Positions 4,557 to 30,221 of a DNA stretch of 33,966 nt are shown one piece after another; within the stretch, counting starts at the first letter, position 1; each line of letters begins with the position of its first letter. The DNA comes from Falsiroseomonas oleicola (GTDB lineage: Bacteria > Pseudomonadota > Alphaproteobacteria > Acetobacterales > Acetobacteraceae), in contig NZ_JAERQM010000015.1 in assembly GCF_019029495.1 (NCBI RefSeq), forward strand, positions 1 through 33,966, read 5' to 3'. The translations under genes were made by a program, and so were the position numbers. The notes under the pieces are model-generated. The model had not been told where the DNA came from, made no database searches, and worked only from the letters and a program-made list of their open reading frames with translations.

Positions 4557-4563
4557 AGAGAAT

Positions 4564-9752: not shown

Positions 9753-10631
9753 CTACTGCGCGGCCACCTGGGTGGCGGGTTCCCACTTCAGCTTGCGGCG
9801 TGTGGCTTCCTCGATCTCGAGAATTTCCGTCCGCTTGTAGGTCAGCGCCTTGTTGACATTGATCAGGTCGCGCTTGAGACGCCGCATGCCGTCAGGTTCC
9901 AGCGAGGCGGCATGGTCGGTACCCTTCCAAGTACGGTCCAGCGTGAAGTGCCGCTCAATGACCGTCGCGCCCAGCGCCATGGCTGCAATGTCGGCGGAAA
10001 TGCCGAGATGGTGGCCGGAGAAACCAATCTCCCGAACCCGCGAGCCGTACATCTCCCTGAAGCGCGTGATCTCGAGCAGACACAGATCCTCGAACGGCAC
10101 CGGATAGCCGGAGGTGCACACATACAGGACCACATCCTTGGCGCGACCGCGGTCCTCGTAGAAGCGGACCACGGACTCGACTTCCGCCGCCGTGGTCATG
10201 CCGGTCGAGACATGCAGTTCGCCCGGGTAATTGGCGCAGAGCCACTCCTGCAGATCGAAATGCAGATTGGTTGCCGAGGGGATCTTCAGGAATGCAGGCC
10301 GGAGCGCCGCCATTTGCTTCGCGGATGTCAGATCCCACACCGAGGTGCCATAGATGACCCCCTCACGCGCACAGACCTCCATCAACTCCGCATGCTGGTC
10401 CGGAGTGAATTCCAAGGCCTCGCGATGCGCACCATAAGTGTCGCCATAGGCATTGGACGGCACCGGATGGGGGGCGTGATACTGAGTCGAGCTTAGAAGC
10501 TCGACATTATTTCTTTTTTGGAATTTGACCGCATCGACCTGACAAATGCGCCCCGCAACACCAACCATCTCCTTGGCCAGCGCCAGGTCGCCCTTATGGT
10601 TGCAGCCAATTTCCGCAATCAACTTTGCCAT
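9753..10631 (-). CDS. neuB: N-acetylneuraminate synthase family protein without SAF domain
   Basis: This 292-residue NeuB-type barrel enzyme should condense phosphoenolpyruvate with a hexosamine (or its 6-phosphate) to make a nine-carbon nonulosonic acid. It opens with LIAEIGCNHKGD, then VKFQKRNN, GTSVWD and KIPSATN. Near the C-terminus is the family signature ERHFTLDRTWKGTDHAASLEP. Usual NeuB proteins have about 340-350 residues with a C-terminal antifreeze-like SAF domain that caps the active site of the partner subunit. That domain is absent here, the protein ending soon after the barrel. A strong ribosome-binding site (AAGGAGG) precedes the ATG. It is probably the first gene of the operon running to 4564. 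Which nonulosonate is made cannot be told. Confidence 0.88.
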   Translation of the reverse strand: MAKLIAEIGCNHKGDLALAKEMVGVAGRICQVDAVKFQKRNNVELLSSTQYHAPHPVPSNAYGDTYGAHREALEFTPDQHAELMEVCAREGVIYGTSVWDLTSAKQMAALRPAFLKIPSATNLHFDLQEWLCANYPGELHVSTGMTTAAEVESVVRFYEDRGRAKDVVLYVCTSGYPVPFEDLCLLEITRFREMYGSRVREIGFSGHHLGISADIAAMALGATVIERHFTLDRTWKGTDHAASLEPDGMRRLKRDLINVNKALTYKRTEILEIEEATRRKLKWEPATQVAAQ

Positions 10632-10779: not shown

Positions 10780-12378
10780 TCAGAGCATCACTTTTCCTGC
10801 ATGTAGCACAAGACCTGCCATTCCACGATGCAAAGCCTGCCCATCCAAAAGGCAGTTGTGCATCTCCACACTCCGCAACCGCCGATCTTCATCTCGGCCC
10901 GCCACAATCGCCGGACGTGTGCTGCCAGGCGCGGCCCGGATGTCCAGATCACGGCACCTCGCATCCCAGCGCAGGTCATTGGCTGCTGTCGGCACGTCGT
11001 CCTGCAAGGCGCCTCGGGGGAAGCCTTCAATCCGTCCCGACAAGACCAAGCCGCTGCTGGCAAGGCGCAGGACCCCGAGATCGGGGATCCGCAACGGATC
11101 TGGCCCGGATGCCGAAAGCTCCAGCCGCAATGCGCCGCCTGAGGCATTGATCGAGACGGCCGGACGCCGCCGACGCGTCCCGGCCGCTCGCCCCATGCCG
11201 CGACCGACGACCTGCCCTTCGATGGTTGCGACATGGGAAGCCCCCAGCGCCTCCGGTCCACCTATGACGACCACACCGGCCCCGAGCGTCAGGCGCCGCA
11301 GCGGGCAGACAGCGCGGCGTGTGGCGCGGATCGCATAGACAGCCATGTCCTCCAGAACCACGTCTTCCAGTAGAAGATGTTCCGTTGCCGCTTGGCCAGG
11401 GAACATCGAATCATTGATCTCCGCGCCAATGTCGATGCCCTTTCCATGAAAGTCGGACGCTCCGTCATCTTCGGACCGGCGCGGTGGGCGTCCCTGAGCA
11501 CGAAGCCGGCGGATGGTGAAGTGGCCTGGCCCGCCCAGATTCATCAGAGAGCCACTCCAGGCCCCTTCCGTGGCGAAGTCCTCGATCAAAACTTCGCGGG
11601 TCTGCAGGCCCATGACGTTCAACGGCGAACTGACGCCGCCCTGGCCAGCTTCCGTTGGCCCCCGTAGCCGAAATCCACGCACCAGAAGGCGGCGCGCATC
11701 ATGTACGAACAGCCCCTCGCGAAAGGTCGGGTGCTGAAGCGCCAGGTCGTGCAGCTCTACATCCTGGCAATCCGCCACCAGCAGCGGTCCGCGCCGTCCG
11801 TAGGCCCCGCGTATCGGCGCGCGGTTATCCCAGTGACCAGCAAAGCCGGTTAGCACCACGTCGCGCAGCACGCAGTGGCGCGCGCCCCGCACCTCCAGCA
11901 GCGCTGCGGCGTGCGGGTCCGGTCCCTGCCGAAGCCCGCGCCTGCCCTGGGAAATGCCGCCATCCAGCGTGACGCCACGCAGCGAGAATTCAACGGCCCC
12001 CACCGACTTTAGGATGGGGCGGCTTACGGGAAGCCCGGGGTTTGGCGGCGTTGGTCGCGGCACGCAGAGAAGTCGCGTGCGCCCCGCACCTTCGCCGCGG
12101 ATGCGCAGGATGGCATGCCGCACCTCCGGGCAATCATGGTCGCGCGCATCGGCCACCTCACCCGGCGGCACAGCAATGACCGTGGTGCCTGCTCCGAGCA
12201 GTAGATCGGTACCGCGCATGGCGGCCCCCGCAAGTCCCCGGGCGAAGGCTTCGGAGGCATTGGTACCGTCAGCCTGCCCACCGAATTCCGCAAGGCGCAC
12301 GCCCTGTAGGCGCTGGGATAGACCGGGAGTGGCAAGGGTACTAGCGAACAGGCCAAGTGCGGCACGGCGTCGGATCAT
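10780..12378 (-). CDS. Exported right-handed beta-helix protein
   Basis: The 532-residue protein begins MIRRRAALGLFASTLATPGLS, a short basic and hydrophobic leader that fits a Tat-type or Sec signal peptide. The body consists of repeated short strand units such as LLLEDVVLEDMAVYAIRATRR and RGVTLDGG. These are typical of parallel beta-helix proteins (pectate-lyase-like and carbohydrate epimerase or lyase families). An opening EFGGQADGTNASEAF resembles the F-G-A-x-x-D-G-x-x-D start of pectate-lyase superfamily proteins. GGGAGA lies upstream of the ATG. A role in binding, trimming or remodelling an exported polysaccharide fits the neighbours, but no catalytic residues can be identified. Confidence 0.7.
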   Translation of the reverse strand: MIRRRAALGLFASTLATPGLSQRLQGVRLAEFGGQADGTNASEAFARGLAGAAMRGTDLLLGAGTTVIAVPPGEVADARDHDCPEVRHAILRIRGEGAGRTRLLCVPRPTPPNPGLPVSRPILKSVGAVEFSLRGVTLDGGISQGRRGLRQGPDPHAAALLEVRGARHCVLRDVVLTGFAGHWDNRAPIRGAYGRRGPLLVADCQDVELHDLALQHPTFREGLFVHDARRLLVRGFRLRGPTEAGQGGVSSPLNVMGLQTREVLIEDFATEGAWSGSLMNLGGPGHFTIRRLRAQGRPPRRSEDDGASDFHGKGIDIGAEINDSMFPGQAATEHLLLEDVVLEDMAVYAIRATRRAVCPLRRLTLGAGVVVIGGPEALGASHVATIEGQVVGRGMGRAAGTRRRRPAVSINASGGALRLELSASGPDPLRIPDLGVLRLASSGLVLSGRIEGFPRGALQDDVPTAANDLRWDARCRDLDIRAAPGSTRPAIVAGRDEDRRLRSVEMHNCLLDGQALHRGMAGLVLHAGKVML

Positions 12379-12499: not shown

Positions 12500-13414
12500 T
12501 TAATCTGGCGGGGCGCGCGAGACAAGGCCGAAATATGAAGGCGGGAATATTCTTGACAACCCACAGTCATGGAAAATTCGCCACATTTCCTCTTTAACTC
12601 TCTGAACCCAAGCGGATGGCATGGGGTCGTAAATTTCTTTTTTATCATATAAATTAAAATATTCATCTTGGTATCGGTTGTCAGATTCGCCCTTGCCGCT
12701 TCCTCGTTTTTTTCGAGCGGCGTATTCTTCCAAGCTTTTAATCCCATAGTGGCGAAGAATAGCAAGCCCGTGACCGGAAGTAGTCCAGTTTTGATGAGAG
12801 ATGCCATTTCGGAAATTTTCTGGATTAATCGGCTGACCATCAGAATAAATCGAGTTGACTTTGGATAAGTCAAAATGATGAGGGAAGTGAGGACCAAACC
12901 CCCTTAGATTAGAGTCGTGCAACGAGAGTGTCTTTAAGGTTTTGCTTCCGCGATGCGAATCGCTACACCGCCAATGATAATTTTCCATCACAAGGCCCGC
13001 CGGCCTCACCTTATGTCCGTCCGAACCATAGAATCGCCAATTGAAAGATATGCTATGCGCATCTGGGAATCTAGAAACGTAACTTGAGATGTCAATGTCT
13101 TCCGTAAGGTATAAAAATTCATCAGCATCTACAGGATAGACATAAAAAATAGAAGCGCGTGATCGTGCCGCAGCCAAACATAGGCGATATCCGGATTTTT
13201 GCGGATTTCCCAAGGGAGGCACTTCGTTCAAAAAATACTCAATCATACCTCCATCCGCAAGGCACTGAAAGACTTCCAAACTTCGATCGGTATTGTTGTT
13301 GGTCGCAATAAAAATTTTTGAAAAACCAAGTAATTTATAATGCGCCACAAATTCCAAAACATAAGGCCCTTCGTTTCTCATTATCGAAACGAGAAAAATC
13401 GGATCTTGGGGCAT
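12500..13414 (-). CDS. GT2-type glycosyltransferase (Glyco_tranf_2_4-like)
   Basis: The 304-residue protein matches the DUF23/PF13704-type glycosyltransferases. It starts FLVSIMRNEGPYVLEFVAHYKLLGF, with NNNTDRS next and a D-x-D-like acidic motif in VDADEFLYL. An SFNWRFYGSDGH segment follows. The donor and acceptor are unknown. The ATG at 13414 is chosen since the family starts there and AGGGAA lies about ten bases upstream; an in-frame TTG at 13474 would overlap the preceding gene. The gene is part of a stretch (12.48-15.23 kb) clearly richer in A and T than its surroundings, suggesting separate acquisition. Confidence 0.8.
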   Translation of the reverse strand: MPQDPIFLVSIMRNEGPYVLEFVAHYKLLGFSKIFIATNNNTDRSLEVFQCLADGGMIEYFLNEVPPLGNPQKSGYRLCLAAARSRASIFYVYPVDADEFLYLTEDIDISSYVSRFPDAHSISFNWRFYGSDGHKVRPAGLVMENYHWRCSDSHRGSKTLKTLSLHDSNLRGFGPHFPHHFDLSKVNSIYSDGQPINPENFRNGISHQNWTTSGHGLAILRHYGIKSLEEYAARKKRGSGKGESDNRYQDEYFNLYDKKEIYDPMPSAWVQRVKEEMWRIFHDCGLSRIFPPSYFGLVSRAPPD

Positions 13415-13455
13415 TGTGCGTAAATTCCCTGAAATCGCACGAAAATAGCGAGCGA

Positions 13456-14214
13456 TCAGCCTTTCCGAAGGCAAAGAAGCGCTCGAGATTTGTCAAAATC
13501 CAAGATCCAGCGGGGAAATTGCATATCATCGGCGCCTTCGGCCCTGATGCGCTCAAGGGCTGGAAGGGCGGAAGTCGTGTTGGACAGATCAATACCCTTC
13601 TCTCTTAGATCCAAATCCCACCACCGAACCGAAAGAAGCCTTGAAACGATATCGGTAGAAAATCGTGATTTAATACGTCGAGCCGGAACACCTCCAACTA
13701 TATCATACGGCGCAACATCGCGAGTTACCACTGATCCAGCAGCGACGACCGCGCCATGTCCAACCGTTACTCCGCGACGAATGAACACCCCGTTGCCGAT
13801 CCAGACGTCGTGGCCAATCGTGACTTTTCCACTGCGCCAGGGGGTGCGTCTTCTGGACTGCACCGCGCTAAACCAAGGATCACCGCGAAAGACATTCCCG
13901 GATCCCCAGGCAATAGGATGTGTAGAGACGCCATCGAGGGGGTGGTCGACGGAGCCGATTATCACACGCCGGGCGATTGAACAGAACCTGCCTATGGTGG
14001 TTTCACGAAACTCACAGCCTATCCCCGAAAAGGAATAAGCGCCTATTTCGAAGACTCCGTAGATACGTGCGGGCGCAATACTGCATGGCGTTTCGATAAC
14101 CGCTGATGCCGGTATGTTCTTACTATCGAAGCCAATGCCGCGGGCTTGAAGTGCTTTACGCACTTCCGGCTCGCTGACTGTGGAAAGGGAGATATCATCG
14201 TTCTGCGTAAGCAT
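13456..14214 (-). CDS. Hexapeptide-repeat O-acetyltransferase
   Basis: The 252-residue product contains a left-handed beta-helix acyltransferase domain (about residues 45-185) with hexapeptide units such as [55 protein letters not shown] and [13 protein letters not shown]. The insert with SVDHP is like CatB/Vat and WcaF-type acetyltransferases, and its His is the likely catalytic base. It probably O-acetylates a sugar of the surface glycan using acetyl-CoA. The ATG at 14214 lies two bases after the stop of the preceding gene, so the pair is coupled; the longer frame would overlap that gene. Chloramphenicol or streptogramin resistance is unlikely given the glycan context, though not excluded by sequence alone. 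Base composition is AT-richer than the flanks. Confidence 0.82.
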
Positions 14215-14216
14215 GG

Positions 14217-15143
14217 TTATCTTACTGCGTCGACCCAAATGCTTTCATTCGGCCGGGTCTTGTCAAAATAAGCCTTGTTCCTCATGAGGGGGAGGATAGA
14301 TTGGCCATAAGAAGATCTGAGTACCAAACGAAATCCGGAAGACACTAACATCCGGCGCAGCTTTTGTTCTGTCCAATAATTTATATGCTGGTTGGGTTTT
14401 TTTCTGCTAAAGTCTGCGTTTGCCAGGATCGAGTCCGCAGCCGCCTCTGGTGGGCGGCTTGCATGTTCGGCAATAATCGCTTCTTCAAGCGGCAATCCGC
14501 GCCACTCCTTTAGCGCACCGTAACAGGAAGCAATTCTTTCAAAGTAAAGCTGATGGACCGGCTTGCCTTTGCTGAACCCTGAATTGGTATTTATCATCAA
14601 GACGTCTCGCTTGAGGCGCCCCGTCGATCGCTGATCGTAATAGCGCGCGTCGTTAATTTTCCATGCGGCATAGGCTGTGTAAAAATCAGGTGTTGAAATG
14701 CGAAATACGCCGCCGGGGCGGATAATTCTGGCCATTTCAGAGAAGATGTGCATGACCATCTCATCGGTGAGATGCTCAATGGTGTGGCTCGTAAATGCGC
14801 CATACAAAAAATTAGATTCAACCGGCCAAGATTCAAGAACAGACAAGTCTATATTGTAATCGGGTGGGGTATATTGATCGTATGGCGGTTGAACAAAATC
14901 GTGGTTGCGCCAGCAGGGGTGGGACCAATCTCCTGCGCCGATATTGAGAAAGGGTCGCAGGTCTGTCGCCTTGTCGCCCAACAGGGCGGTGTAGTCTGCG
15001 GTGTCATCTACGCGATCAGTCATAAGGCGATCGTCTAAATTGGCAAGCGAAAAAAGTGATGCGGTGTCGTCAAGCGCGCTCCAATCGAACCCAGCCTGTT
15101 CTACCGCAGGTGGTGCCAAAAGAGATCTCTTTTCGCTTTCCAT
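14217..15143 (-). CDS. SAM-dependent methyltransferase
   Basis: A 308-residue class I methyltransferase. The SAM-binding region is [13 protein letters not shown], and later segments include [38 protein letters not shown] (Methyltransf_11 type). It most likely methylates a sugar, lipid or sugar-nucleotide in the same glycan pathway as the acetyltransferase and glycosyltransferase that follow it. The ATG at 15143 has AAGG nine bases upstream; a TTG five codons earlier is less likely. A good sigma-70-like promoter (15200-15227) lies just upstream, making this the first gene of a three-gene, AT-richer unit (15143 to 12500). Confidence 0.8.
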
Positions 15144-15199
15144 GATAACCACCTTCAAATCCAGGGATTAAAGCGTTACGTGTTGCTTGCGCGGCACTA

Positions 15200-16576: not shown

Positions 16577-19270
16577 ATGGCATCCTCTCTTCGCGCATCC
16601 CGCCCCGCAGAATCTTACGCCAAAGAACTCAGGGCCCTTCGCAACGCCGGACGACCTCTAGCATTGCGGGAACTGCTTGAGGAGGCACTAGCAGCGCATC
16701 CATCTCGCAAAGATTTCAATGCTTTGCGAGCCAATCTCCCGGCGCTGGAGAATCGTCCCGCCGACGCCGCGTCCGAGTGGTTGGAGCGTGGCCCCCGCTT
16801 GGCCCTTGTGCATTGGCGGTTCCATGCGGCCCGGCATCTGGCCTGCGCCGGGGACCCAGACTGGGGTCGTACCGAGCCACTCGCTGATGTGTTGGATACG
16901 CTGTTCCTGCGCGATGCCTTGCCGATGCTGGACTCACCACAGCAGGCGCCGCTGGCGAACGCCATCGCCTCCCGCTTGGTGCAGGAGGCTCCGGGCCTCG
17001 GGCCGGAGGCGGCGCTCGCTTTCCTGCGCGGGGCCGAGCGCTTCCTGCGACTGGCCCCCAGCGGTCTTGGCGACCACCCCGAGACGGTGGCGAATCTGAC
17101 TGCTGCGACCCGCAGCCTCGCCGCCCGAATGGACATTCGGGACAGCCTTGCCGGTGCGCCGGAGGGGCTGGGCCTGTTGCTCGCCAGCACCTGGCCGGAC
17201 CGCACTGCGGCGGCCTTCGGCAGCGACTTGCCCGCCGCCATCCTCGCCGCCTTCAACGGCCCTGTCGCGGCCCGGTTACTCGGGCCGACGCGGATTTTCG
17301 GCCTGATCCGGGATCTCGCCGAATTGGGCCTGCCGTTGCCTGCCACTGCCGCGGTGCCGCCGGCCCTGCTGTCCCTGCTGGCGAAGGATCCACTGCCCAT
17401 CCTCGGCCGCCTGCATGCCGCGGGCGGCGTCGCGGCGTTGGTCATGCTGGTGCCGAAGCTGCCGGCCGATGCCGCCATCCTGCCGCTGCTCGGCCGCATC
17501 GCCGAGACCACGGATGTGCCCGCCTTGGCCGATGCCTGCCTGACAGCGCTGGAACCACGCCTCGGCGCCTATCTGGGGCTGCTCCTGCGGCTTCGGGCTG
17601 AGGGCCGGCTGGGGGGCGATGCGGCCTTCAGGCCTGGGTTGCTCGGCCTGCTGCGGCGCGCCGGTGCGCCAAGCCTGGCCAACCCCACAGCCGCGCCACC
17701 GCCGGCGCCGCCCGTTTCCCCCTGGCCTCGCCGCGCCGCGGCCGAGGCGGCAGGCAACGGCGACCTGGCCGGCGCCACCGAACTGGGCGAGGCGCTGGCC
17801 GACACGCTGGACCATCAGGGGTTGCGTGACCTGACGGCGCGGATGGTCGCCGCCGCGCCACATGACCCGCGCACCGGGGTCGCCACCGCCCGCCTGCTGC
17901 GCCGTGCCTGGATGTGGGAGGAATGGTTCGCCGCCTGCCATCGGCTGGAGGAGGTTGCGCCGCGTTCCGCCCCGGCTGCCGTCGAATGCGTCTTCGGTGC
18001 CATCGATGAACGTGACTTCGGCCGCGCCTGGGATGCGGTGCGCCGCGCCCGGAGGCTCGGCGCCAGCACCGCCGCGCTGCGCGCGGAGGCCAGGGTGCTG
18101 CATGCGGAGGGCCGGGTGGATGAGGTGCTGGCCGCGTGGGAGGCGGTCTGCGCGCAGCCCGATGCTGGTGCCTCCGACCGGCATGACCGCATCATCTGGC
18201 TGTTCGGCGCCGGCCAGGACGTGGCGGCGGAGGCCGCCGCGGCGCAGGCCCATGCGCGCCATCCGGCGGAACCGCGCTTCGCCATCAAGCTGGCCCAGGC
18301 CGCGGAACGCCGGCGCGACTACGCGGCCGCGGCCCTCGCATGGGGTGCCATCGCCGCCCGCCCGGATGCGCCGGCGGATGCGTTGCCGGGCCTGCTACGC
18401 TGCTTGTGGATGCAGGATGATCGATCCGGGCTGGCCGCGGCGATCGAGGCCTATCGCCGCCCTGGTACCCCACATGACCTGCTGTTCGGCCTGCTCGATG
18501 CCTGGTTGCGCGGCGAGGCGGCAGGCCAGATGGCCCTGGCCGAGGCGGTGGCCGCGCTGCACCGGACGACGCGCGCGCAGCTTGCAGAGGCACGCGCCAC
18601 CTGGCGGGCCGATCCCGGCCTGATGCTGCTGTCCGGCCAGCCTGTCCCGCACCCCTCTCCCGAACACGCCGCCGCCCTGCAGGGCGCCGAGGCGGTTCTG
18701 CAGAAGATGGAGGCCGGCCAGACCGTCATTGTCGGAAATTCACCGGAACTGATTGGCCGAAACGACGGGGCGCGGATCGACGCGGCGGGCAGTGTGGTGC
18801 GGCTGAACGATGCGCGGATCGGGGGGTTCGAGACCGATACCGGGGGTCGCACCACCTTGTGGTTCTCTTCCGCCAACCGGCTGGGTGAGCCGGATCCCGG
18901 GCTGCGGCCGGAGCATGCCTGGCTGTACCAGCCTGAGGCGCAGCACCTGCCGCCGATGGCGCTGTTCTGTGCCGGCCGGCTCGGCGTGCCAGCGCCATCC
19001 GGCAGCACCTTCCTGCCGCCGGATATGCACCGCTTCAGCAATGACTTGGTTTACCCAAAGCCAACCACGGGCTTTCGCATGGTCACGACGCTCGCCTTTG
19101 CGCTGGAGAGCCCTGTGGCCGTAGCCGGCTTCGATTTCTTTGTGCGCCATGGCGGTCATTACTTCAGCACCGGCCGGCCGCTACAGGTGGGCGAGGTGCA
19201 TGCGGTCGATTTCGAGCGGCGGCTGGTCGATGAGATCCTGGTTCCCGCCGGGCGTGTGCACCGATGGTAG
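16577..19270 (+). CDS. Large helical-repeat protein with C-terminal GT29 sialyltransferase-like domain
   Basis: The 897-residue protein has about 700 residues of Ala/Leu/Arg-rich helical, TPR-like sequence, then a C-terminal domain with the sialylmotifs of GT29. Motif L (717-762) includes VIVGNSPELIG, VVRLNDA, GFETDTGGRTT. Motif S starts KPTTGFRMVTTLAF with Pro829-Gly832 and ends VAGFDFF. Motif III is HYF (861-863), and motif VS is H-x4-E (His875, Glu880). All four are in the order and spacing known for animal and plant enzymes. The donor would be a CMP-activated sialic acid or Kdo; both pathways are encoded on this plasmid. It is the first gene of the operon and overlaps the next start by seven bases (ATGGTAG). 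The helical part may hold the acceptor or anchor a complex. Confidence 0.82.
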   Translation: MASSLRASRPAESYAKELRALRNAGRPLALRELLEEALAAHPSRKDFNALRANLPALENRPADAASEWLERGPRLALVHWRFHAARHLACAGDPDWGRTEPLADVLDTLFLRDALPMLDSPQQAPLANAIASRLVQEAPGLGPEAALAFLRGAERFLRLAPSGLGDHPETVANLTAATRSLAARMDIRDSLAGAPEGLGLLLASTWPDRTAAAFGSDLPAAILAAFNGPVAARLLGPTRIFGLIRDLAELGLPLPATAAVPPALLSLLAKDPLPILGRLHAAGGVAALVMLVPKLPADAAILPLLGRIAETTDVPALADACLTALEPRLGAYLGLLLRLRAEGRLGGDAAFRPGLLGLLRRAGAPSLANPTAAPPPAPPVSPWPRRAAAEAAGNGDLAGATELGEALADTLDHQGLRDLTARMVAAAPHDPRTGVATARLLRRAWMWEEWFAACHRLEEVAPRSAPAAVECVFGAIDERDFGRAWDAVRRARRLGASTAALRAEARVLHAEGRVDEVLAAWEAVCAQPDAGASDRHDRIIWLFGAGQDVAAEAAAAQAHARHPAEPRFAIKLAQAAERRRDYAAAALAWGAIAARPDAPADALPGLLRCLWMQDDRSGLAAAIEAYRRPGTPHDLLFGLLDAWLRGEAAGQMALAEAVAALHRTTRAQLAEARATWRADPGLMLLSGQPVPHPSPEHAAALQGAEAVLQKMEAGQTVIVGNSPELIGRNDGARIDAAGSVVRLNDARIGGFETDTGGRTTLWFSSANRLGEPDPGLRPEHAWLYQPEAQHLPPMALFCAGRLGVPAPSGSTFLPPDMHRFSNDLVYPKPTTGFRMVTTLAFALESPVAVAGFDFFVRHGGHYFSTGRPLQVGEVHAVDFERRLVDEILVPAGRVHRW

Positions 19271-21168
19271 CTGCGCCACTGCCCTGGGCCGTTCTGGCGC
19301 GGGACGCCACAGTGGCGGTCGACGCGACCGAGGCGCTGCTGCCGCCCGATGTGCCCGCACTCCTGCATCTGGGGGAGGCTGCGGCGGCCGAGCCGGTCGC
19401 CGGGCTGATCCTGTTCGATGACCGCAGCGCCATCGCGCGCGCGCGCATCGCCGAGGCGCGTGCCGCCGATCTGCCCGTGGTGCTGGCGCAGGCCACGGCC
19501 GGGTTGCCGCGCAACGTCTTCGGCCTGGCGTCGCTGGACACAACCCAGGCGCCGGCCTGGGGCGCCAGCGCGCCTGACCTGCTGGTTCTGGCAAGTCCGG
19601 CGGATGCCGCAGCCGTGGCACGCCAGGCCGGCCCGGCAGCACCGCGACGGGTGGCGATCGGCCAGCCCGGCGTGGGGTCCTGGGCCTGGTCGCGGTTGCG
19701 CCGGCCGGCTCGGCCTGGCCAAGTGGTGCTCGATCCCGGTCTGCAGGCCCCCGAACTGCGGACTGCTGGCCTGAACCTCCCGCTCAAGGGTCGTGAGCCG
19801 CCGATCCTGGTGACGGCCCGCCCGGCCGATGCGGCCGAGGCGCTGCGGATGGGGTGGAAGACGCTGCTGCTCGCGCCCGGGTACCGGGACGACGACATAT
19901 CGCAGGGCCTGGCCATCGCTGACGGGCCGGTCCGGGCCGCGGCGTTGCTCCCCCGCTTGGCGGCAGACCGTGATTCGCCCACGGGATGCCCGGCGCGGCT
20001 ACTGCCGCTTGCCGGGGGCGAACCACTGGCGCGACTGCTGGCCCAGCTGGTCCTGGCGGGGGTCGACGCGGTGGGCCAGCCTTGTGGCATGCCAACCGCC
20101 GCGCCAGCCCGCACGGCGCTGCGGCTGGATGGCCTCGCGATGCCGCGCGGCGGCCTCGTCATCGTCTCGCATGACTGGTCCGAGCGCACCGGCCTGGCCC
20201 GCCCGGCGCTCCGCATGGCGGAGGTGCTGCGCGCCGCCGGTATCCCCGTACGTTGTCTGCCAATCGGCCCGGAGGCGGATCCCCGGCCGGTCCTGCGCGC
20301 CATCCCGCCGGAGGCCGCGGTGCTATTCAACTCGGCCGGCATGTTTGAGCGTGGCGAGGCGGCGCTGCGGGTCTACGACGCCATCGCGCCGGCGCGGCGC
20401 GCCATCTACCTGCATGAGACCGCGTGGACGCTGGAGCGCTTCCGGCAGACGGCGCCGGATCTATGGCAGGGTTTCGCCCGGCGCCTGCCCACGGCGCTGC
20501 TGCTGTGCGTCTCCGCCGCCCAGGCCCGGCTGCTGGCCGGGCAATATGGTGCCACGCGCTGCGTCGTGGTCGGCAATGCGACGGAAGTGCCGCGCGCGGC
20601 CGAGACGCTGCTGCCGGCCCCGGCCGGTGCGCACACGGCTATCGCAATGCTCGGCACCGTGCAGGTGCGCAAGGGCCCTGCCCTGTTCGGCGCTGTGGCG
20701 GAACGTGCGGCCAGGTTGGCGTTGCCCTGGGATTTCAGTTGGATCGGCCATGACGTGCAGGAACCGGGCATGCCACCGCCCAGCCCGGCCGTGCGCTGGG
20801 CCGGGCGGCTCGAGGGGGCGGCGTTGGCGGCGGAGCTGGCGGCGATGGACCTGCTGTTGCTGTCCTCGGCCGATGATCCGATGCCGCTATCGGTGATCGA
20901 GGCGCTGGCGCTCGGCAAGCGGGTGGTCGCCTATGCCGAGACTGGCGCGGCCGAGGCGGTGGCCGGCCTGCCGGGCTGCGCCGTCTTTGCCGACTACACC
21001 CCCGAGGCCGCGCTGGCAGCACTGCAGGCGGCACTGGCCCGACCGGCCGATCCTGCGGTGATCGCCGCGCGGGGGCAGGATCTCGCCTCCCCGGTCGGCC
21101 TGGCGCAGCGGATCCTGGCCGCACTGATGGCTGGCGCCACGGGCCGGCCGGTCCCCGCCGCCGCATGA
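19264..21168 (+). CDS. GT4-type glycosyltransferase with long N-terminal extension
   Basis: The 634-residue product carries a GT-B, GT4-type domain in its C-terminal ~350 residues. HDWSERTGLARPALRMAEVLRAAG forms the start, LGTVQVRKGPALFG the linker into the donor half, and SSADDPMPLSVIEALALGKRVVAYAETG the donor-binding region. The usual first glutamate of the E-x7-E motif appears as Asp. The N-terminal ~280 residues resemble another GT-B-like half but are not assignable. The sugar is unknown. It overlaps the preceding gene by seven bases and the following gene by four (ATGA), so it is translated with the two sialyltransferase-type proteins. Confidence 0.75.
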   Translation: MVAAPLPWAVLARDATVAVDATEALLPPDVPALLHLGEAAAAEPVAGLILFDDRSAIARARIAEARAADLPVVLAQATAGLPRNVFGLASLDTTQAPAWGASAPDLLVLASPADAAAVARQAGPAAPRRVAIGQPGVGSWAWSRLRRPARPGQVVLDPGLQAPELRTAGLNLPLKGREPPILVTARPADAAEALRMGWKTLLLAPGYRDDDISQGLAIADGPVRAAALLPRLAADRDSPTGCPARLLPLAGGEPLARLLAQLVLAGVDAVGQPCGMPTAAPARTALRLDGLAMPRGGLVIVSHDWSERTGLARPALRMAEVLRAAGIPVRCLPIGPEADPRPVLRAIPPEAAVLFNSAGMFERGEAALRVYDAIAPARRAIYLHETAWTLERFRQTAPDLWQGFARRLPTALLLCVSAAQARLLAGQYGATRCVVVGNATEVPRAAETLLPAPAGAHTAIAMLGTVQVRKGPALFGAVAERAARLALPWDFSWIGHDVQEPGMPPPSPAVRWAGRLEGAALAAELAAMDLLLLSSADDPMPLSVIEALALGKRVVAYAETGAAEAVAGLPGCAVFADYTPEAALAALQAALARPADPAVIAARGQDLASPVGLAQRILAALMAGATGRPVPAAA

Positions 21169-24059
21169 TCGAGCCCTTGCGCGGTGCGGCGGCATGGTCG
21201 GAGGCGGCACGCCTCGGGCGGCCGGTCGTGGTGGTGGGCAACGGCCCCTCGGCCGCCGACCTGCCGGCAGGCGCGGTGCCAGAGGAGGCTGTGATCGTCC
21301 GCACCAATGCCTTCTTCTTCGAGGATACGCGGCGCTACGGCCGCCGGGTCGATGGCATCTTCTGGGCGGTGGCGCGGCGCTGGCTGCAATTGGGCTTCCA
21401 GGCGGCGATCGCCGAGCAGGTCTATGAGTTCGGCACATTCTTCACTCCGGTCGACGTGGCGCGCGAAACCCTGCCGCCGTTCCGGACGGAGGCCGCGGAG
21501 CTGACGCGCCAGCTGCAACCGCGCATGTCGCATTTCGACCTGCTGCGCGCCGAGCCGATCATCGCCGGCTTCCTGGCCGCGCCGCGAGAGCGGGTGCGGC
21601 CCATGCTGCCGACCCAGGGGCTGCAGGCGGTGGCGACGATGCTGGCCTTCGGCTTCCGGGACATCCGCATCGCCGGCATGGACCTGTACCAGGCCGACCA
21701 GCGCTATGTGCATGCCGTGCCCGACTTCATCCGCGACATGACCGCGCCCGTTCATCTCTCGGGCGGCTACGAGGCGGCACAACATGGGCTGGAGACCGAC
21801 CTTGGCTTTCTGACGGCGTTGCGGGTGGCCTTCCCGTTGGCGCGGATCAGCTGCCTCAGCCCAAGATCCTACATGGCGAAGTTGCTGCCGCTGGCGTCGC
21901 CATCCGCCCGGCCTGGGGCCTCGGCGGGTCCGGCCCCGGCCAGCTTCGAATCACGCCTCCGGATGCTGTGCGGGGCGCCTTTTGGGCAGATGCCGGCCGC
22001 TGAACCCCAGGCTGGATCCGCTGAGCCTGGCTTGGCCGGTGGCGTAGCCCAGCTCGACGTGCGCCGGGCGTTGCTCTGGGCCTGGCGGCCGGAACAGCCG
22101 ACGGCCTGGCGCAGCATCCTGATCGAAGGCGCGGCAGGGCTGCGGGAGCGGTTGCGGCCGGACCAGAAGGTGCATGAGCTGGAACTCGCCTGCCTCGGCG
22201 ATGGCCGGCATGGGCGGATCCTCGACCTGGCCTGGCTGGCCGAACGGGTTGGCCCGCCGCCCTGGCGGTTTACCGACGTGGCCAGCGGCCTGCCGCTGCA
22301 TGGCAGCCCGCTCGACCCGCGCGAGGCGCTGCGCTGGCCGCGGCCCGACCCGCGTGAGATCAGGCTCGTCACCGATCCTGCGGCAGCGGCACCGGGTGGC
22401 GTATCAGGCGGGGCATCGGGCGACATACTGGCGGTGCCGGATGGCGAGGGGCGGCTCCGCTGCGACACCGAGGATGGCCCGACATGCCTGCTGCGCCCAG
22501 CGCTACCTGGCCTGGCCGGACAAGTGGCGGCGCTGCAGCATGCTTTTCCAAATGTGCCGGTGCGCTGGCAGCCTGCCCCCGGCACGCTGCATCCGGCCGC
22601 CCTTGCTGCGCTGGTTCAGGCGACAGGTCCGCGGCTGGGCGACTTGCTGGCAATGGCGGCGGAGGGGATGTTGGTTGGACTGCCGGCAACGGCGCAGGAT
22701 CAGATCAAGGCCGCCCTCATGCTGCAGTCCACCCTTTTCATCCTTGGCGAGGGCCATGTCCGGGATGGCTTTGGCGGCCTGCTCGACCAGGTGTCAGCGG
22801 CCCAGCGATTGCCGCTTTCGGTCGCGACGGGGCTGCTCAGCGTGCTGGGAGAGACGCCAGGCGGCGGGGCGCTGCTGATCGGGCTACCCGACTTGCTGCA
22901 GGGCGGGGAGATGCTGATGCCGCGGCTGCTCGCCATGGCCCGGGGCGGCGAGAAGCATGTCTTCGTGGCGGTGCCCGGCTGGCCGTCTGGCGGCGCACGG
23001 GCGCGCGACCTGCTGCATCGGCTGGGTGCCGCCGGCGGCACCGCGATCGCCACCGATCTGGGTGTTGCCGATGCGCTGCGGGTGGCCCTGCCGGGGCTGC
23101 CGCTGCGGGTTGCCGAGGCACCGCCGGCGGCCTGGCACGCCCTCTGCCTGCGGCCTGCACACGCCGATGCGCGGCGCACCATCGGCCTGCTGGTCGCAGA
23201 GGCGGACCGCGCCACGCTCGACCTGGTGGCCGATGCGGTCTGGGCATTGCCGGCCGGGGATCGCCAGCGGCTCGACCTGCTGGTGCTCCCCCTGGGTGGC
23301 CAGGCAGGGCCTGCCGAGGCGGAGGCGGCCGGCATTGCCTCCGCCGAGACGGTGCCGGTGGCGAACCCCTCGGCGGAGGTTATGGCGGCCCTTGAGGTCT
23401 GCATCCTGATGGGCTCCGCATCCGGCTTCCCGCCAGCGCTGTCGCATGCTTCGGCGTTGGGCCTGCCGCTGCTGCTGGCCCAGCCGGCCGGCTTCGCGTC
23501 CCAGGGGACAGCGCCGCCAGTGCTGGGACTGGACGCGGCGTTGGCCGCGGCGCTGGCCGGCGGTGGCGAAGCGGGCGTGCTGCGGGCGCCGGCTGCCGAA
23601 GGCAGCACGGCCGCGCTGCTCGCCGCGATGGCGGACGTGCCGCGGCAGGCGGCTGCGGCCTTCCTTGCCGGGCAGGCCAGCCTGGCGGTCGGTAACCAGC
23701 CGGAGGAGGACGCAACGGATCTCGAAATCCGCGCCTATTTCGGCACCTCGGGTGAGGGCAGCACCGTTACGCTTCACCTGTTCAACCGCAGCCCCCACAC
23801 TTGGCTCCGGGCTGGTCGGTCCGGGTGTGGCGCAACCCATCTCGACATGGCCTTCCACAGCGGTGACCCGGGCGCCGCCTTGGTGCGCCATACACTGCCG
23901 CTATTGGCGGACCTGCCGCCGGGCGGCGATTGGACGGCTGCCTTTCCCATGCCCAAAGGGCTGGCGGGACGTTCCTGCACTTTCACCCTGAGCCTGCTCC
24001 GCGGCGCGATGAGGCGAAGGCGATTGTTCGGCCCGGTGCAGATCAGAAGGGTTCCATGA
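21165..24059 (+). CDS. Multidomain protein with N-terminal GT42 (CstII-like) sialyltransferase
   Basis: The first ~250 of 964 residues match the Campylobacter Cst sialyltransferases of GT42. GNGPS is at 25-29 and VRTNAFFFEDTRRYG around Asn48. PTQGLQAVATMLAFGFRDI starts at 149, and GMDLYQ carries Tyr175, with Tyr181 six residues on. QHGLETD gives His207-x4-Asp212, followed by CLSPRSYMAKLLPLA. The two tyrosines and the His-x4-Asp keep the spacing I recall for CstII Tyr156/Tyr162 and His188. The Ser of CstII 'ITSG' is Gln151 here. The rest includes an uncharacterised middle, a GT-B-like half (SGFPPALSHASALGLPLLLA, ~750-775) and a beta-rich end. It should transfer a sialic-acid-like sugar from CMP. 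It overlaps genes on both sides by four bases. Confidence 0.8.
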   Translation: MIEPLRGAAAWSEAARLGRPVVVVGNGPSAADLPAGAVPEEAVIVRTNAFFFEDTRRYGRRVDGIFWAVARRWLQLGFQAAIAEQVYEFGTFFTPVDVARETLPPFRTEAAELTRQLQPRMSHFDLLRAEPIIAGFLAAPRERVRPMLPTQGLQAVATMLAFGFRDIRIAGMDLYQADQRYVHAVPDFIRDMTAPVHLSGGYEAAQHGLETDLGFLTALRVAFPLARISCLSPRSYMAKLLPLASPSARPGASAGPAPASFESRLRMLCGAPFGQMPAAEPQAGSAEPGLAGGVAQLDVRRALLWAWRPEQPTAWRSILIEGAAGLRERLRPDQKVHELELACLGDGRHGRILDLAWLAERVGPPPWRFTDVASGLPLHGSPLDPREALRWPRPDPREIRLVTDPAAAAPGGVSGGASGDILAVPDGEGRLRCDTEDGPTCLLRPALPGLAGQVAALQHAFPNVPVRWQPAPGTLHPAALAALVQATGPRLGDLLAMAAEGMLVGLPATAQDQIKAALMLQSTLFILGEGHVRDGFGGLLDQVSAAQRLPLSVATGLLSVLGETPGGGALLIGLPDLLQGGEMLMPRLLAMARGGEKHVFVAVPGWPSGGARARDLLHRLGAAGGTAIATDLGVADALRVALPGLPLRVAEAPPAAWHALCLRPAHADARRTIGLLVAEADRATLDLVADAVWALPAGDRQRLDLLVLPLGGQAGPAEAEAAGIASAETVPVANPSAEVMAALEVCILMGSASGFPPALSHASALGLPLLLAQPAGFASQGTAPPVLGLDAALAAALAGGGEAGVLRAPAAEGSTAALLAAMADVPRQAAAAFLAGQASLAVGNQPEEDATDLEIRAYFGTSGEGSTVTLHLFNRSPHTWLRAGRSGCGATHLDMAFHSGDPGAALVRHTLPLLADLPPGGDWTAAFPMPKGLAGRSCTFTLSLLRGAMRRRRLFGPVQIRRVP

Positions 24060-25975
24060 GCGAAACGGTATTGCCGACAGCCGTCATCGAAAAGCGCTGG
24101 CTGCAGCGGGTTACGCTCAGCATCGCGCCCGCGCCACTGCCGCGCGGTGCCGTGCTGATGGTGGGGGGCACGCCGCAGCCCTGGACCCCGGCCGGACCTA
24201 GCGGAGCCATGTTCTCCTTGCCTGAGGAGCTGATCGCCAAGGGTGACACCACGGCAGAGTTCGTCGGCACCGACGGCGCGAAGCTGTCCGCACCCTGCCC
24301 ATTGCCGATCGGTTTCTGGATCTCCTTCGGCACGCTGGTCGGCTTCATCGACCACGTCGAACGCCTGCAGGACCAGGTGACGGTGCGGGGCTGGGCCGTG
24401 GATTGGCGGAAGCCGCGGCAGCGCGTGCAGATCGGCCTCGAGACCGAAGGCCGGATCGTCGCGCTGGCGCGCGCCGACATCTACCGCGCCGACCTCAAGC
24501 AGCTCGGCGTCGGCGACGGTCACCAGGGCTTTGCCTTCTGCATTCTCGGCAACGCCCTGCACCGCGATGAGGAAATCGTGGTCCGGCTGATGGCCAATGG
24601 CGCGCCGCTCAACGGATCACCGGTGCGGCTTGGCGGCGGGCACGACAAGACCGGCGGCGCCACCGTGGTCGGACGGCTGCACGCCCCGCAGCAGGTGCAG
24701 GCAGAGGCGGCCGATGCTGTGGCCGAAGACATTGCGCTGCCCCCGGACCTGATCCCCGTGGCCATGCCACCGGCACTGGCGGAGCAGGATGCCGAAATCC
24801 AGCGCATGCTGACCAAGGCCGCGCAGGATCACCCGCAGGCCTATCTTCTGCTGTGCGAAAGCGGCACAGCCCTGTCGCCGGCGCAGGCCGCACGCCTGGT
24901 GGCAACGCTGCGCACCAATGCTTGCGCCGGCTTCGCCGCGGCAGTGACGATGATGCCGGACGGCATGGTGGTGGGCGGCGGCTATCGCATGATCGGCGAT
25001 GGGGAGGGCGACAGGATTGCGGCGATCCGGCCGCCGCCGGCACTGGATCTTCTGGTGGCGGAGATTGGCAGCCCCGGCGTGATCGCCTTCCCTGCGCCGG
25101 TGCTGCTGGCGGCGCTGGCGGAGTGCGGTCCCTGGCAGGAAGGCCGCCTCGGCTCGATCTGGAGCGAATTGGCGGTGGCGCTGCTGGCGCGTGGCCTGGT
25201 CGGCCTGCTCGACCCTGCGGTGCAGGCGATGGCACCCTATCGGCATTCCAAGGACCGCTGCCCGCCGAAGGTCAGTCCTGCCTTCCTGGCCGCCTTCCGC
25301 CCGGTACGACCCCGCCGCCGTGCGCAGCGACTGGTGGAGCTTTCGGCCGCCACCGACATCGGCCTGGCCTGGCAGACCTTGGGCGAGATTCTGCTACGCC
25401 GCGCCGTGGTCTGGGCGTTGCTCGACCACCGGCCTGTGGTGGCACTGGATCCGGCCGCGCCCGCAGCGTTATTCCGGCGACTACGTGGCCATGGGCTGGA
25501 GGTGCTGGAAGCGCCCCTTCCCGATGGCCTCGACGCTGCGGAACAGCCGCTGCGCCACCGGCTGCTGCGGCAGGTGCAGCAGCCATCCGCGACCAGCCGG
25601 GGTTTGGTGCTGCAAGATCTGGTCGTCGGCGAAGACTCTCCGGGGCTGGAGGCGATTTCACTGCACAGCCATCCGCTGGCGATACTGCCGCCGCCTGACG
25701 CAGCCCTTACCGCGGCCCTGCTCCGCGCCCAGATGCTGCCAATCGCCCCTGCGCGGGAGCCATCGCTGTGGCGGGAGCGCGGCGGCGGCGAAGATCCGCT
25801 TGATCGCATGGTTGCCGCACAACTGGCCCTGGAAGCAGGCACGGAGGGCGCGGCGGATGCAATGCGGGATCTGGCGCAGGCTGGGGCTGCCACGGTCGAA
25901 ACACCGCCGACAGGCCGCAGCCCGCAGGCCTGCGCCGAGCACCTGCAGGCAAGACTGCGGCAGATCGGGTTCTGA
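24056..25975 (+). CDS. Glycosyltransferase-associated accessory protein (uncharacterised)
   Basis: The 639-residue product starts at the ATG overlapping the previous stop (ATGA). Residues ~85-195 hold a beta-sandwich-like module of the form GWAVDWRKPRQRVQIGL and ADIYRADLKQLGVGDGHQGF. I recognise this module as recurring in bacterial multi-domain glycosyltransferases, with no known chemistry. The middle (LLLCESGTALSPAQAARLVATLR, then VGGGYRMIGDGEG) is reminiscent of the later part of GT2 domains but lacks the early DxD-type motif. The C-terminal third is unassigned. As the last gene of the operon it is followed by two hairpins and a convergent gene. It may bind a glycan or hold the glycosyltransferases together. 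Confidence 0.6.
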   Translation: MSETVLPTAVIEKRWLQRVTLSIAPAPLPRGAVLMVGGTPQPWTPAGPSGAMFSLPEELIAKGDTTAEFVGTDGAKLSAPCPLPIGFWISFGTLVGFIDHVERLQDQVTVRGWAVDWRKPRQRVQIGLETEGRIVALARADIYRADLKQLGVGDGHQGFAFCILGNALHRDEEIVVRLMANGAPLNGSPVRLGGGHDKTGGATVVGRLHAPQQVQAEAADAVAEDIALPPDLIPVAMPPALAEQDAEIQRMLTKAAQDHPQAYLLLCESGTALSPAQAARLVATLRTNACAGFAAAVTMMPDGMVVGGGYRMIGDGEGDRIAAIRPPPALDLLVAEIGSPGVIAFPAPVLLAALAECGPWQEGRLGSIWSELAVALLARGLVGLLDPAVQAMAPYRHSKDRCPPKVSPAFLAAFRPVRPRRRAQRLVELSAATDIGLAWQTLGEILLRRAVVWALLDHRPVVALDPAAPAALFRRLRGHGLEVLEAPLPDGLDAAEQPLRHRLLRQVQQPSATSRGLVLQDLVVGEDSPGLEAISLHSHPLAILPPPDAALTAALLRAQMLPIAPAREPSLWRERGGGEDPLDRMVAAQLALEAGTEGAADAMRDLAQAGAATVETPPTGRSPQACAEHLQARLRQIGF

Positions 25976-26156: not shown

Positions 26157-27419
26157 TCAGTCGAGCGCCGTCAGGGCTGCCTCCATCTGGCTGCCGGTCA
26201 TGGCGAATGGCAGGACGCGCAGATGCCGGATTTCGCCGAACAGGTTGTTCGTCCCGGTTGCTGAAGACCCCAGACGCAGCGTTGTCAGATCGGTGCTCAA
26301 GGCGACCAGCGGCTGAATGCTGTCCCCACGCAGCAGCACCGATCCGCTGCCGGTACCGTCCACACTCAGCCCGACAGCGAAGGGTACCCCCGCCGTGATC
26401 GTTCCGGCATTGGCCTTGAGGGTCGTGCCGGGGCTACGCACCCGCACTGCCCCGCTGGCTTGCACAGGCATGGCGATGCGGTTGGTGTTCCCGCCATCGT
26501 CGAGATGAAACAGGTAGGCTTCACCAGAAAGGGCCGGTATTTGCCCAGCCCACAGCACCGTGCATGGGCCAGCAACGCCCAGGCTCGCCAGGGGCGTACT
26601 GACCAGGTCCATGCCGCGCGTGCTGGCCCCTGGCGAGCCGACCAGGGGCAGGATTGGGCTGGAGACGAATGGTGCGAGTTCCTGCTGCGGGCAGGCGACC
26701 CGCAACGTTACGTCGATGGTGCCCGCGGCCGGGATGGTGAGCAGCACCTCGGAATGGGCAAAGGCAGCCAGCGCCGGCATGGTGAGCGTGGCGTGCCATC
26801 GCTGGCTGCCAAGGCTGGCGCCGGTCGGTACCATGGCAATGCTCTCAACGCCGATGGACACACCGCCTGCATCGCGCGCCCGCATCACCTGCGCGACCGA
26901 GGTCAGGCCAGTAAGGGAGCCGCCCACCAGCCTGACGAAACTGCTTGATGTCCAGGTTTCACCAGGCGATGCGGCGTTGGCTGTGCCGGCTTCTGGCGAA
27001 ATGCTGAGTTGCAGCGTGCTACCGGCGCTGTTCGTGCCGCTGAAGCGCAGGTCGATCCAAGCCAGGCCATTTTCGGTTCCGGTATCCATGATTTGGCGCG
27101 TGATGCCGCTGCCGGTGCCGCTGATGACCCAATGCGTCGGCGCGGTGCCGGGGGAGCCAATGGCAGCGCCCTGCGCACGTGGGTTGCGGATCCCGTTGGT
27201 CCGCTGCCCCTCGATCAGCAGGCGGCGTGCGGAGCCGCTGAAGCGCGGCACATCCGCCCCGTACTCGAGCCAACTCATGCCATCCGCACCAAGCGAGCTC
27301 GTATTCGCCGTGACCTGCGCGCGTTGCAGCGGCGCAAAGTCGCGAAGAACCGAGGGGCTGACCAGCCGGGTGCCGGCCTCGCCCAACATGCCCAGCATAG
27401 GAGCCATTGTCATGGTCAT
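26157..27419 (-). CDS. Tail-fibre-like or LamG-like surface protein
   Basis: This 420-residue protein is rich in Ser, Thr, Gly and Ala and has no long hydrophobic segment. Residues ~40-95 contain WLEYGADVPRFSGSARRLLIEGQRTNGIRNP, a stretch typical of phage tail-fibre or head-decoration proteins in alphaproteobacteria ('dpvt-prGlLiEeqRTN'). The C-terminal ~170 residues look like a concanavalin/LamG-type sandwich ending FGEIRHLRVLPFAMTGSQMEAALTAL. There is no phage gene nearby, so it is more likely a secreted or surface-attached carbohydrate-binding protein, possibly an acceptor for the encoded glycosylation. The ATG at 27419 is the first of three close Met codons; AGGGAAG lies about 12 bases upstream. 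No signal peptide is evident. Confidence 0.62.
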   Translation of the reverse strand: MTMTMAPMLGMLGEAGTRLVSPSVLRDFAPLQRAQVTANTSSLGADGMSWLEYGADVPRFSGSARRLLIEGQRTNGIRNPRAQGAAIGSPGTAPTHWVISGTGSGITRQIMDTGTENGLAWIDLRFSGTNSAGSTLQLSISPEAGTANAASPGETWTSSSFVRLVGGSLTGLTSVAQVMRARDAGGVSIGVESIAMVPTGASLGSQRWHATLTMPALAAFAHSEVLLTIPAAGTIDVTLRVACPQQELAPFVSSPILPLVGSPGASTRGMDLVSTPLASLGVAGPCTVLWAGQIPALSGEAYLFHLDDGGNTNRIAMPVQASGAVRVRSPGTTLKANAGTITAGVPFAVGLSVDGTGSGSVLLRGDSIQPLVALSTDLTTLRLGSSATGTNNLFGEIRHLRVLPFAMTGSQMEAALTALD

Positions 27420-29243: not shown

Positions 29244-30221
29244 TCAGAGCACGCCGGCGCGCAACAGGTCGTGCAAGTGCAGAATTCCCACCGGCCGGCG
29301 GTCGTCCTCCACCACGAAGACGCTGGTGATGCTGTACTCGTTCATCATGCCGAGCAGCTCGGCGGCCAAGGCCTGGGGCGAGGTGGTGCGCGGTGCGCGA
29401 GTCATGACCTCCGCCACGGGCACAGTCAGGTCGAATCTGCTCTGGAAGGCACGCCGCAGGTCACCGTCGGTCAGAACGCCCGCCAGGCAGCCATCCTGGT
29501 CCACCACGCCTGTGATGCCGAAGCGGCGGGACGTCATTTCCATGATCGCCTCGCCCAGTGTCGCCGCCATGGTGACGCTGGGGATCTCGTCGCCACCATG
29601 CATCAGGTCCCGCGCCCGCATCAGCTGCGCCCCGAGCTTGCCGCCAGGGTGAAAAGCCCGGAAATCCGCAGGCGAAAAGCCCCGCGCCTGCAGCAGGCAG
29701 ATCGCCAGCGCATCGCCCATGGCCAATTGCATGGTCGTGCTGGTGGTTGGGGCCAGGCCGTTCGGGCAGGCCTCGGGCATGCGTGGCAGCGTCAGCAGGA
29801 TGTCGGCGGCACTGCCAAGCGCGCTGTCCGGCCGCGATGAGATGGCGATCAGCGGCACGTCGAAACGGCGGGCATAGGCGATGACGTCGGCAAGCTCCGG
29901 CGCCTCCCCCGACCAGGACAAGGCCAGCACGGCATCCTGCCGGGTGATCATGCCGAGGTCGCCGTGGCTGGCCTCGGCGGGATGCACGAACATCGCCGGC
30001 GTGCCGGTGGAGGCCAGGGTGGAGGCGATCTTCCGGCCGACATGACCAGACTTGCCCATGCCGGTAACAATCAGCCGGCCTGGTCGTGCCAGGATCAGCG
30101 AGACCGCCTCGATCGCTTTACCGCCCAGGGGCCCTTCCAGGGCCCGCCGCAACTCCTGCAGGCCCTCCACCTCCAGGGTAAGGGTCCTGATCATGGCCTC
30201 GCGACGCAAATCGTCGGTCAT
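29244..30221 (-). CDS. kdsD: D-arabinose 5-phosphate isomerase
   Basis: The 325-residue enzyme converts ribulose 5-phosphate to arabinose 5-phosphate, the first committed precursor of Kdo. It has the SIS sugar-isomerase domain (about residues 35-175; [31 protein letters not shown] and [10 protein letters not shown]). The conserved [20 protein letters not shown] follows, and two CBS domains end the protein (about 205-320). The length is normal for the KdsD/KpsF group. Its ATG overlaps the kdsB stop (ATGA), so kdsA-kdsB-kdsD are translationally coupled. A plasmid copy beside a capsule-like locus resembles the KpsF-type paralogues used for capsule; a chromosomal copy for lipopolysaccharide would be expected. 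Confidence 0.95.

Follow-up and report, generated by a model that had tools for sequence, protein, structure and literature searches.

The 33,966-base contig NZ_JAERQM010000015.1 of Falsiroseomonas oleicola, analyzed over its entire length (the window), carries a run of four overlapping genes (A to D, plus strand) that brings together domains of two sialyltransferase families, GT29 at the end of A and GT42 at the beginning of C. Profile, motif and alignment data identify this as a true pairing of two related families in one operon, located on a plasmid with a recurring set of nonulosonate genes. The families of the two domains, their catalytic residues, the gene overlaps and the recurrence of NeuB, synthetase and GT42 genes on other plasmids were observed directly. 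We infer that A and C may use one cytidine monophosphate (CMP)-activated nonulosonate to form two linkages on a nonulosonate-bearing surface glycan partly assembled by plasmid genes, a reading to which we give a probability of slightly under one half (about 0.48). According to this proposal, a NeuB-family synthase and a fused CMP-synthetase/phosphatase would make the CMP-nonulosonate, perhaps CMP-2-keto-3-deoxynononic acid (CMP-Kdn); C (through its GT42 domain) and A (through its GT29 domain) would each transfer it, giving two linkages; and other residues of the glycan would be added by B (GT4-like), GT8 proteins and other enzymes. We do not regard the presence of two different ulosonic acids in the glycan as proven.

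Organization of the operon

Gene A (16577–19270; 897 amino acids, aa) consists of an N-terminal region of ~690 aa followed by the GT29 domain. Its last seven bases (ATGGTAG, 19264–19270) overlap gene B (19264–21168; 634 aa), whose C-terminal domain is GT4-like (PF13692, 39.4 bits, cut-off 27), in agreement with an earlier note on this DNA, which had placed a GT4-like gene between the two transferases. B overlaps by four bases (ATGA, 21165–21168) with gene C (21165–24059; 964 aa), in which the GT42 domain is followed by ~700 aa more, and C overlaps by four bases (ATGA, 24056–24059) with gene D (24056–25975; 639 aa), to which no family is assigned. Because of the latter overlap D is the fourth gene of a run for which three had been given. 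The run had also been described as translationally coupled; the overlaps support such coupling, and they are no proof of it.

No sigma-70-like promoter was found between 16200 and 26400 (0 sites, 0.3 expected), a result that says little in this bacterial group, and a scan for promoters and terminators gave counts no higher than in shuffled sequences. Searches with the remaining parts of A, B and C and with the whole of D returned no Pfam or database match of weight. The remainder of C and D matched PDB sequences at chance level only, and B had no relative in plasmid records at E 1e-5. Pseudogenes were considered and dropped as an explanation in view of the open frames and the retained catalytic residues, and a chance motif match is ruled out by the profile E-values.

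The GT29 domain of gene A

The GT29 domain (18647–19267) is matched by PF00777 with an E-value of 2e-13 (50.8 bits, cut-off 23), the strongest part of the match falling at residues 710–766, and the domain alone found mammalian ST6GalNAc2 in the PDB at 2.4e-4 (phmmer). When 15 relatives were combined with the window's domain into a 16-row bacterial profile, this matched 15 PDB sequences at E <=10. These were eight mammalian GT29 entries (ST3Gal-I best at 3.2e-20, the weakest at 6.6e-13) followed by seven of CstII (0.02 to 0.16). The alignment to ST3Gal-I covers the greater part of the domain and takes in motif VS. Seven positions (R62, N64, G76, G152, G171, H195 and E200) are invariant in all 16 rows; the Asn and Arg of motif L, the Gly of motif S and the His and Glu of motif VS are among the residues that are both invariant and aligned to ST3Gal-I. 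Motif III reads His-Tyr-aromatic in 10 of the 16 rows (His-Tyr-Phe in seven, A among them) and departs from this in the other six. The profile match and the alignment thus bear out the claim that A ends in a GT29 domain with sialylmotifs L, S, III and VS. The motif names agree with those in PMC5811610.

A's domain shares motifs L, S and VS with mammalian GT29 enzymes (ST3Gal-I, ST6GalNAc2), and differs from mammalian and plant members in that it measures ~210 aa and is joined to an extended N-terminal region. A structure prediction for the domain with one relative gave a pLDDT of 37, and the model is unusable.

The N-terminal region suggested a further explanation, in which these ~690 aa would recruit a protein acceptor to which the GT29 domain adds a nonulosonate. 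This modular layout resembles that of FlmG, which, according to PMC7591256, places pseudaminic acid onto Caulobacter flagellin by means of an N-terminal binding module and a C-terminal transferase module. The region aligns with that of the closest relative of A over 466 aa (28% identity; computed without composition correction, so that the E-value, 4e-16, overstates the match), and the relative shows a weak tetratricopeptide repeat (TPR) match (E 0.021). A itself gave no TPR match in the profile scans and lies within a glycosyltransferase operon, and the likeness to FlmG is one of described layout. We regard protein modification by A as distinctly improbable.

The GT42 domain of gene C and its relationship to GT29

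The GT42 (CstI/CstII-type) domain of C (21165–21908) scored near the cut-off of PF06002 (1.5e-6, 28.4 bits, cut-off 25) and matched CstII at 2.3e-11 as a single sequence (phmmer) and at 1.7e-29 with a seven-row profile. In all seven rows N26, N48, Y175, Y181 and H207 are invariant. As had been claimed, C begins with a GT42 domain that has two Tyr six residues apart and a His-x4-Asp motif. The matching Tyr, Tyr and His are those that we take to be catalytic in CstII. C shares the domain and these residues with CstI/CstII of Campylobacter and is longer by ~700 residues of no assigned function. For neither domain did we find what had been named as evidence against it, the lack of a profile match or of the catalytic residues.

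The earlier note called the two families unrelated, which the profile comparisons contradict. Alignment of the GT29 and GT42 profiles (hhalign) gave a probability of 97.5 and an E-value of 5e-12 over 172 columns, with the motif VS His of GT29 facing H207 of GT42. Besides the window's GT42 protein, hit at 0.0019, the GT29 profile detected all but one of the six other GT42 proteins (3e-9 to 2.5e-4); the GT42 profile matched eight GT29 proteins (7.6e-9 to 0.0025), the window's own not among them. When 299 family genomes were searched with the GT42 profile (E <=1e-4; at most the best eight candidates per genome), it found only C and two proteins at GT29 places. PMC5811610 likewise describes GT42 as phylogenetically related to GT29 and uses it as the GT29 outgroup. 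On these sequence comparisons, GT29 and GT42 are distantly related families.

Distribution of the pairing

GT29 had been described as chiefly an animal and plant family with few bacterial members. This view is not supported: PMC5811610 lists 23 bacterial GT29s, 19 of them from alpha-proteobacteria, and we found GT29 in 8 of the 15 genomes from the genus, in 9 of 299 from the family and in 2 of 385 from the class (the window's own in each count). PF06002 found GT42 in one of the 15 genus genomes (E 0.01), namely the window's own, at E 0.009. Its null result over the 385 class genomes is uninformative, since the window's own copy was also missed. With the better profile, and after removal of two GT29 cross-hits, GT42 was present in one of the 299 family genomes (at most the best eight candidates per genome, so that copies may be missed).

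Whole A, compared with 72,556 plasmid records (E 1e-3), had a single match, in Paracoccus liaowanqingii, where the GT29 gene adjoins that of an acylneuraminate cytidylyltransferase. The GT42 domain of C matched seven records (E <=1), none of them among the matches of whole A. In genome contigs, no close relative of whole A was confirmed among 27 candidate stretches; a two-row alignment of A led to one confirmed case out of 192 candidates, and the only relative named there is from Pseudoroseomonas aerophila (Teichococcus aerophilus, Roseomonadaceae, at NCBI).

The alphaproteobacterial GT29s compared here, like those of PMC5811610, share the sialylmotifs and the kinship with GT42. In the stretches read, the bacterial relatives occur by themselves or with a CMP-synthetase, adjacent or fused, whereas A stands in an operon with GT42. 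Around them, the GT42 profile turned up nothing except weak cross-hits, all of which fell on the frames of the GT29s. Among the papers listed by the literature searches, which leave out most subscription papers, none describes a GT29–GT42 operon. The earlier note knew of no such system, and its rarity holds within the genomes, plasmids and papers covered. The pairing is uncommon in these samples; each part has known relatives.

This distribution also bears on the idea that only GT42 serves the plasmid glycan, GT29 being a passenger that is frequent in the genus and acts on a separate, unrelated acceptor (e.g. the lipopolysaccharide, LPS, core). Of the 14 remaining genus genomes, 7 have GT29 and none has a PF06002 match (E 0.01), and the closest relative of A has no homologues of B, C or D within 20 kb. 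PF06002 is, however, insensitive here, finding even the window's own copy only at E 0.009, and A heads the operon and overlaps B by seven bases. We consider a passenger GT29 rather unlikely.

Nonulosonate genes and the putative donor

The plasmid carries genes for CMP-nonulosonate synthesis, as had been proposed. The first encodes a NeuB-family synthase (9753–10631, minus strand), the sole NeuB-family match found in the genome; it reached the cut-off of the Pfam NeuB family (212.6 bits) and stayed below those of the NeuB/NnaB (189 of 400 bits) and PseI (134 of 340 bits) equivalogs. It has 292 aa, compared with ~349 aa in the bacterial NeuB structures that match it. The second (8445–9683, minus strand) encodes a CMP-nonulosonate synthetase fused to a KdsC/Kdn-9-phosphatase-like haloacid dehalogenase (HAD) domain, whose best match was the Kdn-9-phosphatase model (NF058599; 98 bits, below the cut-off of 180).

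NeuB was matched in 100 plasmid records, in 10 of them with 60–80% identity. All seven GT42 records fall within these 10, and the fused synthetase/phosphatase is present in 10 of 10 (45–55% identity in the seven with GT42). The distance from NeuB to GT42 ranges from 3 to 30 kb. The three records without a GT42 match are two of S. fredii and one of Rhizobium, and two Ensifer records are near copies of each other and hence not independent. NeuB, the synthetase/phosphatase and GT42 therefore form a recurring plasmid set, of which the window is one more case.

The clusters compared (Pseudorhodobacter, Marinovum pMaD10, Tritonibacter p4, Maritalea, Sinorhizobium meliloti ml28 and Ensifer adhaerens) resemble the window in the NeuB subfamily (61–65%), the fused synthetase (45–55%) and a plasmid-borne GT42. 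Their GT42 proteins have ~260–275 aa or, in S. meliloti and Ensifer, where a GT8 domain is joined on, ~556 aa, whereas C has 964 aa, and whole A as the query found no GT29 in these records. A DUF6716 protein is encoded in five of the six GT42 records read (the Ensifer stretch around GT42 is without one), and the window has no DUF6716 match. This putative glycosyltransferase was seen in six of seven read records with this NeuB (L035, L036, L041, L042, L045 and L046), by means of a profile built from four of those six; a search by name found no paper on it in the literature covered.

In S. meliloti ml28, ~17 kb hold an A-2_8-polyST (polysialyltransferase-family) gene, a GT42–GT8 fusion, a DUF6716 protein, the fused synthetase and NeuB, with recombinase and insertion-sequence genes separating the A-2_8-polyST gene from the remainder. 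Several TRANSFERASES in one cluster are thus not new; unlike ml28, the window has GT29 and no DUF6716 match.

Our guess at the donor is CMP-Kdn, with sugars like N-acetylneuraminic acid also possible. Synthase, phosphatase and synthetase would suffice to make it from mannose-6-phosphate and phosphoenolpyruvate, the HAD domain fits the Kdn-9-phosphatase model best, and a Kdn polysaccharide is reported from Sinorhizobium fredii SVQ293 (PMC7845648). This NeuB (61–62%) and the synthetase (49.5%) are present in records of two further S. fredii strains.

The relatives of the GT29 domain give slight guidance on its donor. A cytidylyltransferase accompanies GT29 in 5 of the 15, fused at L022 and L023 (both of genome G003) and as a neighbor at L026, L030 and L034. 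In G003, Pfam placed both parts in one open frame (L022, 3753–5729; L023, 4670–6712), an apparent natural synthetase–transferase fusion, of which no report was found in the literature searched. A fusion was also considered at L030 and rejected, since the two parts lie in different frames; at L026, L030 and in Paracoccus the cytidylyltransferase adjoins GT29 in a separate frame. Just before the fused gene at L023, a second, truncated GT29 piece was seen in another frame (4338–4808). At L023, L026 and L030 the cytidylyltransferase and GT29 follow what we take, from the look of the sequence, to be a UvrA-like gene, presumably a shared genome place. All five cytidylyltransferases matched PseF (pseudaminate type) best, and two of them also matched KdsB with a lower score, which favors a nonulosonate donor.

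The Kdo genes and the alternative of two donors

Genes for CMP-3-deoxy-manno-octulosonate (CMP-Kdo) synthesis are, as had been stated, present on the minus strand: kdsA (Kdo-8-phosphate synthase, 30940–31797) and kdsB (CMP-Kdo synthetase, 30218–30982) both pass their equivalog cut-offs, and a kdsD/kpsF-type arabinose-5-phosphate isomerase gene (29244–30221) passes the KpsF subfamily cut-off, not that of the KdsD equivalog. These genes had been taken as a sign of a second ulosonic-acid linkage. The copy numbers of kdsA do not uphold this. A KdsA search of the organism's own genome (E 1e-5) found the plasmid copy only (the assembly may lack a small part of the genome), and exactly one kdsA is present in each of the 15 genus genomes (E 1e-10), in at least one of which (G008) it lies on a contig of >1.5 Mb. 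A WaaA-type protein is encoded on another contig (C4) of the same genome and in 13 of the 15 genus genomes.

Most simply, the plasmid copy is the housekeeping kdsA, so that the Kdo genes are explained by the LPS core and drop out as evidence for a second donor; as proof of one they were rejected. The single-copy kdsA also makes the plasmid likely to be indispensable.

It might nevertheless be proposed that the donors differ, GT42 working with the plasmid-made CMP-nonulosonate and GT29 with CMP-Kdo, so that the glycan bears both. The plant GT29 protein RCKT1/MGP2 is needed for Kdo in rhamnogalacturonan II, according to PMC11288761, where the enzyme activity was not assayed. In addition, kdsA, kdsB and kdsD all lie on the plasmid, and in one other genome (G007) a GT29 gene adjoins kdsD. 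On the other side, a kdsA that is single-copy in 15 of 15 genomes is uninformative about the operon, and the five cytidylyltransferases that adjoin relatives of A or are fused to them look to be of a nonulosonate type. We judge two donors to be unlikely. It is somewhat less likely still that this one operon joins two ulosonic acids, Kdn or another nonulosonate by GT42 and Kdo by a bacterial GT29. If A's GT29 did transfer Kdo, it would be a bacterial Kdo transferase of the GT29 family, of which no report was found in the literature searched.

Several observations weigh against our preferred reading, in which A and C share one CMP-nonulosonate. The GT29 gene of G007 (L021) lies just after kdsD, with ~6–7 kb between it and kdsA and kdsB, an arrangement equally compatible with a Kdo donor. 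The PseF scores (37–75 bits) are far under the cut-off of 206 and do not specify the exact sugar, and 10 of the 15 GT29 relatives have no cytidylyltransferase in the stretches fetched. NeuB seems to lack its C-terminal domain, the absence of a SAF-domain match in the Pfam scan being unexplained. One of the seven GT42 matches, that of Pseudorhodobacter, is weak when taken alone (E 0.05), although its record names the protein alpha-2,3-sialyltransferase. No other locus with both GT29 and GT42 was found in the genomes and plasmids searched, which are a sample, so that joint action is unsupported by comparison. Finally, no exporter or polymerase was recognized among the plasmid genes scanned.

A GT8 protein with a GT42-like domain

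The gene at 4564–6636 (minus strand) encodes a GT8 domain (39.7 bits) and a C-terminal GT42-like (MptE-like) domain. A three-row profile of the latter matched CstII at 8.4e-6; its alignment with the GT42 profile extended over no more than 38 columns, and as a single sequence it found no GT42 in the PDB. None of the catalytic Tyr, Tyr and His is invariant in the three-row alignment, which contains one short row, and since they could not be placed we do not class the protein as GT42. A structure prediction of this domain (pLDDT 36) is unusable. The protein is possibly a third nonulosonate transferase, and if the operon did join two ulosonic acids it could add a third linkage.

The S. meliloti ml28 fusion has the mirror order, GT42 and then GT8. 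In Rhizobium sp. 32-5/1, matches to NeuB, the synthetase, the C-terminal domain of 4564–6636 and the genes at 13456, 15238 (part), 27927 and 32097 lie within 26 kb; Rhizobium sp. 32-5/1 also has two DUF6716 proteins.

The plasmid

The window is one contig (C7) of a 30-contig, 5.6 Mb genome with a completeness of 99.6%. The same 11-bp tandem array occupies 97 bases at each end (1–97, 8.8 copies; 33870–33966), and profile matches identified a ParA/VirC1-type partition ATPase (297–986, plus strand) and a RepA_C replication protein (1617–2573, plus strand). These features make it probable that the contig represents an entire circular plasmid (~34 kb), its assembly interrupted within the array, in agreement with the earlier note, which had placed the genes on a plasmid. 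A 14-bp core (GGACTCTACTGACG), iteron-like in look, occurs in four copies around repA (1420–1547 and 2581–2605).

Genes A–D have a G+C content of 70–75%, compared with 67–71% in five 20-kb stretches of other contigs. Three minus-strand genes at 12500–15158 (GT2-like, hexapeptide acetyltransferase-like and methyltransferase-like) have 44–54%, and the other measured plasmid genes 56–75%. By composition, the operon looks native and these three genes foreign; they are likely later arrivals. The gene at 32097–33473 (minus strand), which we presume from the look of its sequence to be UDP-glucose dehydrogenase-like, shares a stretch of 59% identity with Rhizobium sp. 32-5/1. Two long genes (26157–27419 and 10780–12378) gave no Pfam match, and the product of the latter is, we assume, similar to a secreted beta-helix protein.

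Significance

Knowledge of bacterial GT29 enzymes comes from sequences, no tested activity being found in the literature searched, in so far as its accessible text goes. The operon offers a compact native system in which to learn what bacterial GT29s transfer and how two related families divide their work. Since animal and plant sialyltransferases have been traced to bacterial, mainly alpha-proteobacterial, GT29s (PMC5811610), the pairing also bears on the origin of the animal and plant enzymes.

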